Assembly (NCBI RefSeq): GCF_038432375.1
Contig: NZ_JBCAUS010000002.1
Span: 124,001-188,000, forward strand
DNA: 64,000 bases
Direction of reading: 5' to 3'
Origin: Methanococcoides sp. LMO-2
GTDB lineage: Archaea; Halobacteriota; Methanosarcinia; Methanosarcinales; Methanosarcinaceae
Made by a program: the position numbers and the translations under genes. A model generated the notes under the pieces. The model made no database searches, was not told where the DNA came from, and saw only the letters and a list, made by a program, of their open reading frames with translations. Each line of letters opens with the position of its first letter. Within the stretch, counting starts at the first letter, position 1. Shown piece by piece: positions 2,932 to 56,505 of this stretch.

Positions 2932-3081
2932 TCAGCATTTTTTCAGACTGAAAAGATGAAAGCCAGGTCCAACTTCTTTACAAATGCAATTTTGGCAACC
3001 TTCCTTTAATGATAAATCCGGGTTTCTTTCACAAAAACAATTTCCACAATTAAGACATGTGCAGATTCTTTTATCGACCAT
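2932..3081 (-). CDS. Possible small cysteine-rich protein
   Basis: A 49-residue reading frame with nine cysteines arranged in clusters (CTCLNCGNCFC near the N terminus, CQNCIC in the middle, one Cys at the C terminus). The spacing suggests metal binding, zinc or iron-sulphur, but I do not recognise the family. An in-frame ATG at 3126 would add 15 residues of unremarkable sequence; the shorter start is chosen because it begins right before the cysteine-rich part. No strong ribosome binding site is visible for either. Methanogens encode many such small Cys-rich proteins, and the cysteine content is unlikely by chance, but the surrounding DNA is A+T-rich and the call is tentative. Confidence 0.4.
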   Translation of the reverse strand: MVDKRICTCLNCGNCFCERNPDLSLKEGCQNCICKEVGPGFHLFSLKKC

Positions 3082-3337
3082 TTTGATCAACTGTTTCCCA
3101 TTTCTTTTCCAACATATATGTGTCAAAACTTACAAAATATATAACTTTGTAATTGTAATTCTATGTTATGCGTAAAGATAAGATTAGAAAAGCAGTTGTT
3201 TATGAGGGAAAGCTTTTCTTCATAAAGAAACTCTGGAATAAGGAATAATTCAGTGTTTATGAGATCCTGTTTTCTTTTGGCACGATCTGGACAATATATA
3301 TATCTGTTCTTAATATCCCATATTATGGGGTGATACA

Positions 3338-3559
3338 ATAGAACGTAAAAACAAATTCCCGGTTCTTGAAGGATGGATCGAGAACTGTCCCTAGCTTAAC
3401 AGGGATATCGAGCTGCTGGAATGCATGAAGTGTGAACATTTCACAAAGATCGACTGCATCTTCATTGTCTGTGGATACAAGGAGAGATATTCCAAGCGGC
3501 GGAAAACATATCGCGATGCTGAGACCGGGGAAGAGGCTATCAGGTGTGACCTGTCCTGA
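3338..3559 (+). pseudogene. Small Cys-containing gene with in-frame TAG and no standard start codon
   Basis: From 3338 a 73-codon frame reads like real protein (FPVLEGWIENCP, then LLECMKCEHFTKIDC, then CGYKERYSKRRKTYRDAETG, ending TGA at 3557-3559) but is interrupted by TAG at 3392-3394 and has no ATG, GTG or TTG in frame after the upstream stop at 3311. An excellent ribosome binding site, GGGGTGAT (3327-3334), precedes an ATA codon at 3338, so either ATA starts translation or the original ATG was mutated. Pattern and composition on both sides of the TAG are protein-like, with four Cys in two CxxC-like pairs. Two readings are possible: a decaying gene, or a pyrrolysine-type amber readthrough, which Methanosarcinales can carry out. 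The missing start favours decay. Product family not recognised. Confidence 0.5.
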
Positions 3560-19359: not shown

Positions 19360-19692
19360 ATGAGAATGCTAGAAGAATTCTTCCCGGAATTCACTGAAAA
19401 ACTGGATGAGATCGACAAATTATATGCCGATACGAGGACGATCGATGAAAAGACCTATCAGTTCATCTGCTTTGCCCTTTCTATCAAAGCAAGGTCAAAG
19501 CCCTGTGTGCTCAAGCATTTCAAAGGTGCTCTTGAAGCAGGTGCCACTGTCAAGGAACTCTCGTATATCTTTGCCCTGACAATGAGAGAAGCTGCAGGTG
19601 CCGATGACTGCTGGACACATGATGTCGTCGGGGACTGGAAAGAAATACTCAAAGGTAATGTATCCTGCAGTTGCTGTGGCGACGAGGAATGA
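19360..19692 (+). CDS. Carboxymuconolactone decarboxylase/AhpD-like protein
   Basis: A 110-residue protein of the AhpD-like fold. The central pattern, KARSKPCVLKHFKGALEAGA followed by TVKELSYIFALTMREAAGAD, matches CMD-family proteins, where the Cys-X2-His part is the redox or base motif; here only one cysteine (C48) is present in place of the CxxC of AhpD. A C-terminal cluster CSCCGDEE adds three more cysteines, unusual for the family and possibly metal-binding or redox-active. Members remove peroxides or handle hydroperoxides, or are decarboxylases; the reaction here is unknown. The gene is single and converges on the cation ATPase. Confidence 0.82.
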   Translation: MRMLEEFFPEFTEKLDEIDKLYADTRTIDEKTYQFICFALSIKARSKPCVLKHFKGALEAGATVKELSYIFALTMREAAGADDCWTHDVVGDWKEILKGNVSCSCCGDEE

Positions 19693-19765
19693 CTTTCCCT
19701 CTCTTTCATCTTTAAATGACCAGACAACGGATCAATTTCTCAATTATCTCAACATTCCGGCTTTT

Positions 19766-56269: not shown

Positions 56270-56505
56270 TGCAGATAAGCTTTTTGACATTCAACAACAA
56301 TTCCCCAGTTCTCCAACCTCTTCAACCTCCCCATAACATGAGAATTCAGAGTAAATGGATTATCACTCATGTCATTCTACTTCATGTAACGCAACGTTCC
56401 CTTAGCCATCTTTTTCCATTTGATGTAAGACAGAACAAGGATCTTCTTTCTCAACAGATCAGAATAACCCCTCTTACCAACACAAACAGCCTTCTGAGGA
56501 TTATT
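56270..56505 (-). pseudogene. Decayed fragment resembling a Cas1 C-terminal end, copy 1
   Basis: On the minus strand a frame reads SYIKWKKMAKGTLRYMK, then a TAG codon (56377-56379), then NDMSDNPFTLNSHVMGRLK and LENWG. It has no start codon and no complete domain, so it is a remnant. The pattern W-K-K-M..KGTL.YMK.N...PFTLN.HV..RL matches the fragment at 58546-58691. From memory this pattern is the C-terminal tail of some archaeal Cas1 proteins; I could not check it, and a transposase or other protein is not excluded. Confidence 0.5.

Follow-up and report, generated by a model that had tools for sequence, protein, structure and literature searches.

Does a small Cys-rich frame with ATA in place of a start codon and TAG as its nineteenth codon still encode a protein in Methanococcoides, and how would the two odd codons then be read? 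The frame lies in the window, i.e., the whole stretch of 64,000 nucleotides from Methanococcoides sp. LMO-2 that was analyzed. A preliminary description had regarded readthrough of the TAG as conceivable but had preferred decay as the simpler reading, as the start is missing too. Comparison with related genomes now makes us highly confident that the frame is a functional gene for a 73-residue Cys-rich protein, that its UAG is decoded as pyrrolysine, and that its family is confined to Methanosarcinaceae as far as searched. The features discussed here are as follows.

3338..3559, + strand: gene for a small Cys-rich protein of 73 residues, counting pyrrolysine at the UAG, and ending with TGA
3392..3394, + strand: in-frame TAG, codon 19, predicted pyrrolysine by alignment of homologues
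3295..3303, + strand: presumed TATA box (TATATATAT), part of a conserved block that extends from 3287 up to the start codon
3314..3332, + strand: dyad around CCCATATTATGGGG, eight possible pairs, which would cover most of the Shine-Dalgarno sequence
3327..3334, + strand: Shine-Dalgarno sequence GGGGTGAT, 3 bases before the ATA
3338..3340, + strand: ATA, probable initiation codon, unchanged in five genomes of the genus

The frame at 3338-3559 (+) translates as I-E-R-K-N-K-F-P-V-L-E-G-W-I-E-N-C-P-[TAG 3392-3394]-L-N-R-D-I-E-L-L-E-C-M-K-C-E-H-F-T-K-I-D-C-... and stops at TGA 3557-3559. Homologues (E 0.01 or better) were found in 20 of 111 Methanosarcinaceae genomes, own genome included. A profile search gave matches in 21 of 185 genomes at the level of the order and in 18 of 392 genomes sampled from the phylum, all of them in Methanosarcinaceae except for a weak one in G440 (E 3e-4). 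As far as these searches extended, the protein apparently represents an orphan family of Methanosarcinaceae. Six of the 11 genomes of the genus carry the gene (own genome, G000, and G018, G019, G020, G024, and G025); one of these loci (L040; G025) belongs to Methanococcoides vulcani SLH 33. The other five copies are 88-97% identical to the window's copy, and the frame is intact from codon 9 to the end in all six, that of G025 being shorter at the N-terminus. Related genomes thus do hold homologues in the same reading frame, the lack of which would have spoken against a gene.

No homologue was detected in the remaining five genomes of the genus, one of which is 76% complete. Four of them keep the NAPRTase gene and the adjoining EamA gene and show no remnant of the gene there; in G017, the EamA gene beside NAPRTase consists of two pieces in different frames. 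The fifth, G022, gave no NAPRTase match. Apparently the gene is dispensable and can be lost within the genus. A functional partner could not be derived from gene context, as neighbors differ by genus: they are EamA and NAPRTase in Methanococcoides, whereas Pfam identifies those in G033 as Maf and a radical SAM protein, similar-looking neighbors occurring in G031, G032, G034, and G035, and G006 has a methyltransferase-domain protein upstream of the homologue. A second, decayed gene copy was observed in G024 about 600 bases upstream (L024:1501-1644), with TGA at the amber position and many replacements. Counts of residues and start codons given below leave out the truncated or weak sequences of G080, G074, G029, G048, and G440 and the second matches in G024 and G025. 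G007 has the same sequence as G006 over the gene and is counted but stands outside alignment A1; G025 is outside the comparisons of codons 1-8 and of the start in five genomes because its frame begins at codon 9.

The genome was checked for pylTSBCD. The genes pylS, pylB, pylC, and pylD lie in a row on contig C6, with scores above the cut-offs, and tRNA-Pyl(CTA) is located upstream. Furthermore, pylS was present in all 19 genomes tested, including all 11 of the genus, and tRNA-Pyl(CTA) adjoins pylS in each of the five loci scanned. As a positive control, two of the five MtmB-family matches in the own genome showed one in-frame TAG each. Among ORFs with 150 codons or more, TAG terminates 4 of 287 across 400 kb of the own genome and 7 of 252 across 400 kb of G020, these stretches amounting to about a sixth of each genome. 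Two of the own genome's four terminal TAGs, those at C2:239657 and C2:259759 described below, are followed by a frame that is conserved in G020; hence, real TAG stops may be rarer still.

In-frame TAGs were also compared between these 400 kb stretches of the own genome and G020; once those overlapping any other frame of at least 100 codons had been dropped, 45 rows with aligned flanks were left. G020 has TAG as well in 21 rows, four of them with dN/dS below 0.35 on both sides, and a sense codon in 24 rows, five of them below 0.35 on both sides. In this comparison, the gene described here yielded dN/dS of 0.08 before and 0.02 after the TAG. The sites C2:80765 (0.09 and 0.15; frame of 68 codons) and C2:269819 (0.12 and 0.14; frame of 59 codons) may be shadows of small genes. 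Three further TAG sites were noticed. At C2:239657 (L052 about 19657-19659, outside the window), the last of the four rows with TAG in both genomes and low dN/dS, a TAG shared with G020 lies inside a 907-codon frame that looks by eye like a histidine kinase ATPase stretch (dN/dS 0.18 before, 0.14 after); this TAG is another candidate pyrrolysine codon. At G000:C2:259759 (L053 about 19759-19761, outside the window), a TAG near the end of a 481-codon frame is matched by TGG (Trp) in G020, and a short conserved tail follows. At 56377-56379 (-) of the window, an in-frame TAG in a small frame, with ...KGTLRYMK before it and NDMSDNPFTLNSHV... behind it, aligns to Lys in a G020 relative; dN/dS is 0.14 and 0.07 in a divergent match (59%).

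An Rfam search at E up to 5 yielded no PYLIS-type element; it listed two matches, both unrelated and far below their cut-offs. Changes on both sides were seen in one of the 41 predicted pairs of the RNA structure behind the TAG. An excerpt of PMC9499178 states that a dedicated mRNA motif is unnecessary for insertion of pyrrolysine, which competes with the release factor.

At codon 19, five of the six genus copies have TAG, and G018 has TGG (Trp). The preliminary description had proposed that homologues be searched for a sense codon such as Lys at this position, and Lys was indeed present in five of the 11 outgroup copies (G006, G007, G009, G028, and G032), together with Arg in five (G031, G033, G034, G035, and G095) and Met in one (G088). 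With homologues in frame, TAG in five of six genus copies, and pylTSBCD in the genome, the notion of readthrough has gained firm ground; on the sequence comparisons, UAG very probably stands for pyrrolysine, by far the best reading. In the lineage of Methanococcoides, where UAG is tolerated as sense, a codon for Lys or Arg was probably its precursor.

Neutral simulations were run on a tree of length 1.36 derived from 119 fourfold sites of the neighboring EamA gene. TAG was kept in at least five of six genomes in 16% of them (p = 0.161), i.e., within neutral expectation; selected retention of the TAG is therefore unsupported. Retention in the neutral range and Trp in G018 fit a tolerated sense codon, and the chemistry of pyrrolysine at codon 19 presumably need not matter. 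In the G031 homologue (L019 about 1504-1659), a different codon is an in-frame TAG, namely that of residue 28 in the numbering of the window's copy, for which its congeners have Glu or Ala. This would be a separate gain, so that the family seems to have acquired amber codons twice.

Readthrough might instead be regulatory, an 18-residue stub and the 73-residue protein together reporting the supply of charged tRNA-Pyl and the full-length form arising mainly when methylamine metabolism needs pyrrolysine. Such a role would suit a TAG kept in most of the genus copies, the weak start codons of most family copies, and the dyad over the Shine-Dalgarno sequence. We consider it improbable nevertheless: TAG retention does not exceed the neutral range, G018, with Trp at this codon, still has the gene behind the same block of promoter, Shine-Dalgarno sequence, and ATA, and readthrough is probably constant rather than conditional because TAG is rare as a stop.

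On either side of the TAG, pairwise dN/dS lay between 0 and 0.2 in the pairs for which it was defined, with dS among the copies reaching values above 1; the one exception was the pair G020-G024 before the TAG, where a value of 0.67 is based on a single synonymous change. Fitch changes at the first, second, and third codon position numbered 1, 1, and 11 for codons 5-18, 4, 0, and 5 for codons 20-29, and 14, 3, and 48 for codons 30-73. Frames +1 and +2 had no such bias. The amino acid was changed in two of eight variable codons among codons 5-18, in one of six among codons 20-29, and in nine of 32 among codons 30-73, and in 2000 neutral simulations no value as low was reached for any one of these three segments. 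Codons 2-4 are free of constraint, the amino acid varying in all three. The earlier impression that the frame reads like protein on both sides of the TAG was thus confirmed: substitution is of the coding type before and after it, and the other two frames lack this pattern.

These data bear on the idea of two products, namely an 18-residue peptide that the TAG terminates and a separate protein with its start further downstream, e.g., at ATG 3425. An in-frame ATG is present at codon 30 in all six genus copies, and in the window it opens an ORF of 44 codons (3425-3559). However, codons 20-29, which precede this ATG and contain no ATG, GTG, or TTG in the window's copy, are strongly constrained; only readthrough of the TAG explains their constraint, for which a restart downstream cannot account. 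In addition, both halves form one uninterrupted frame in 10 of the 11 outgroup copies, the other being G031 with its TAG at residue 28. Two products are thus very unlikely.

The Shine-Dalgarno sequence GGGGTGAT stands 3 bases ahead of ATA 3338, as had been reported, with ACA at 3335-3337 between them. Taken alone it is no evidence, the window containing two copies against 2.03 expected; it counts as evidence because 45 of the 54 surrounding bases, from -51 to the end of the ATA, are invariant in five genus genomes. From -100 to -52, 3 of 49 bases are invariant, a contrast inflated by indels further up since the comparison was ungapped. GGTGAT-ACA-ATA is identical in all five genomes, and the first G's differ in G019 (GTGGTGAT). 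The DUF655 start had been said to show the same spacing, a parallel that was not confirmed. The window contains one more exact GGGGTGAT, at 15985-15978 on the minus strand, and the ten bases behind it include neither ATG nor GTG nor TTG.

The ATA remained unchanged among the five genomes in 224 of 5000 neutral simulations. Three of codons 5-8 and four of codons 5-10 are variable, yet no amino acid is changed, and none of 5000 neutral simulations was as low. From the preceding stop to codon 5, no in-frame ATG, GTG, or TTG occurs in any of the five genomes; G024 has GTG at codon 9. With a good Shine-Dalgarno sequence and no usual start ahead of the constrained codons, initiation at AUA is likely in these five genomes, no other plausible initiator being available, and AUA there is predicted to act as a weak and unusual initiator. 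It was right that no ATG stands at 3338, but the missing start is no sign of decay, as the ATA is common to five genomes and does not reflect a recent loss. A search of homologues for ATG at this place had been proposed, and none was found: all five that align there have ATA. M. vulcani (G025) has a different upstream sequence and ATG at codon 9. At the matching place, outgroup copies start with TTG in eight of 11 cases and with ATG in one (G032); two have no usual start (G009 and G028), the start region of G028 reading GGTGAT-ATT-ATA. In G006 and G007, the TTG is preceded by a GTG three codons upstream. ATG thus starts 2 of 17 family copies, which are not independent of each other, and its rarity suggests that low output is normal for the family.

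The role of 3295..3303 as a promoter element is assumed from the archaeal consensus. From its position, and with the usual spacing between TATA box and start, the transcript may begin at about 3325. Such a start would fall within the dyad and so argue against an RNA hairpin. In the five genomes, 39 of 40 cells of the dyad are paired, compared to 35-62.5% in slid controls; a shuffle control was uninformative. No pair was changed on both sides among these genomes, and even with 1 mismatch allowed, the own genome contains no second copy of the 14-mer of the dyad. The dyad is possibly an operator, a start-site element, or a hairpin masking the Shine-Dalgarno sequence. Just upstream, on the opposite strand, another small Cys-rich frame of 49 codons was observed (2932-3081 (-); MVDKRICTCLNCGNCFCER...). 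Similar sequence occurs at the equivalent place in four congeners (L005-L008), and the frame gave no Pfam match.

Translation might also start at AUG 3325 (AUG GGG UGA) instead of AUA and enter the frame by a +1 shift, as in the bacterial RF2 gene, where such a +1 frameshift operates. ATG NGG TGA is indeed found just before the frame in five genus genomes, but G019 has TGG before the TGA, which permits no re-pairing after a +1 slip, and the ATG and the TGA are partly products of the GGGGTGAT motif itself. Furthermore, no Shine-Dalgarno sequence is evident before ATG 3325, and the good one serves the ATA; this route, too, deserves very little belief.

A pseudogene with both start and frame lost, for which one could cite the lack of ATG, GTG, or TTG and the internal stop in the window's copy as well as a patchy family with real wrecks (the second copy in G024, G074 with TGA, and the pieces of G029 on two contigs), is extremely unlikely: purifying selection acts before and after the TAG at dS of up to more than 1, and relaxed selection, when tested for, was absent; identical TAG and ATA recur in several genomes; the frame from codon 9 onward is intact throughout the genus copies; every disabling change in the own copy is also found in congeners, which makes a very recent decay of this copy unlikely; and the decayed second copy of G024 looks quite different. 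Decay, the simpler reading at the outset, was hence abandoned.

The functional gene with a pyrrolysine codon and a probable AUA start would be translated as follows. Ribosomes would bind GGGGUGAU and initiate weakly at AUA with methionine; at codon 19, pyrrolysine from tRNA-Pyl(CUA) would enter in competition with the release factor, and translation would end at UGA. C17, C29, and C32 of the protein are invariant, C40 and C45 are conserved in at least 90% of 16 aligned rows, and the tail has a basic motif Y-S/T/A-K-R-R. The five conserved Cys residues and the basic K-R-R tail hint that the protein may bind metal and contact nucleic acid or the ribosome. Searches of Pfam and NCBIfam, including the methylamine methyltransferase profiles (MtmB/MtbB/MttB), gave no relevant match, and a sequence search of the PDB gave no convincing match to a solved structure; AlphaFold modeling (two sequences) reached a mean pLDDT of 57.7, too poor for use. 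On these features the product might be a small metal-binding (zinc-like) protein, perhaps associated with nucleic acid or the ribosome, and made at a low level. Sparing translation could even have a purpose, with AUA, a Shine-Dalgarno sequence within a dyad, and an early pyrrolysine codon tying output to charged tRNA-Pyl, so that the protein reports pyrrolysine or methylamine status; we give this idea little credence.

How does the gene relate to known pyrrolysine genes? In excerpts of the papers cited, MtmB, MtbB, MttB, and a TetR-like protein are the pyrrolysine clusters conserved between species (PMC1914089), further pyrrolysine proteins were proposed, including a CobN homologue (PMC1242214) that the former paper of 2007 disputes (PMC1914089), and a neutral gain of UAG was argued for some genes (PMC3639795). 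M. burtonii is the sole organism of the genus in the 2005 survey, as far as its excerpt goes (PMC1242214), and is named in the comparison of the 2013 paper, likewise seen as an excerpt (PMC3639795). Like MtmB, MtbB, MttB, and the TetR-like protein, the gene has a conserved in-frame UAG at an aligned position, codes onward to another stop, and resides in a pylTSBCD host. It differs from the former three in that it does not encode a methyltransferase, as judged from Pfam and NCBIfam, and from all four in that relatives free of pyrrolysine carry Lys, Arg, Met, or Trp, pyrrolysine not being obviously catalytic. With the neutral amber codons in Methanosarcina transposases it shares a tolerated UAG in a gene outside methylamine metabolism; in contrast to the neutral ambers of Methanosarcina, its TAG is common to five genomes of a genus and belongs to an orphan family. 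The gene for tRNA-His guanylyltransferase is a Methanosarcina gene with a neutral amber codon.

A Science paper of 2025 reportedly describes archaea that read all TAG codons as pyrrolysine; the rarity of TAG as a terminator in 400 kb fits such a code, and the gene models of that work may well include this small Cys-rich family. The start has its nearest parallel in bacterial infC, which begins with a near-cognate AUU. In both cases a good Shine-Dalgarno sequence precedes a weak initiation codon that is conserved, AUA here and AUU in infC; we know of no link of the small Cys-rich gene to initiation factors. Judged by titles and the openings of abstracts, the literature searches listed no paper on such a small protein, nor any that deals with methanogen genes starting at AUA. 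On balance, we favor a small living gene that contains a pyrrolysine codon and probably starts at AUA, i.e., an unusual start on a known kind of protein.

A gene finder that requires ATG, GTG, or TTG and tolerates no internal stop would be expected to miss this gene twice. Its ATA, shared by five genomes, makes it a candidate case of AUA initiation occurring naturally in archaea, and the Lys, Arg, Met, and Trp counterparts at the TAG site make the effect of pyrrolysine testable by swapping a single residue. Should the idea of sparing translation be true, a small metal-binding protein outside the methyltransferases would serve as a reporter of pyrrolysine or methylamine status. As it stands, the gene probably adds a conserved pyrrolysine-containing protein outside methylamine metabolism and is a clear example of UAG serving Methanococcoides as an ordinary sense codon.
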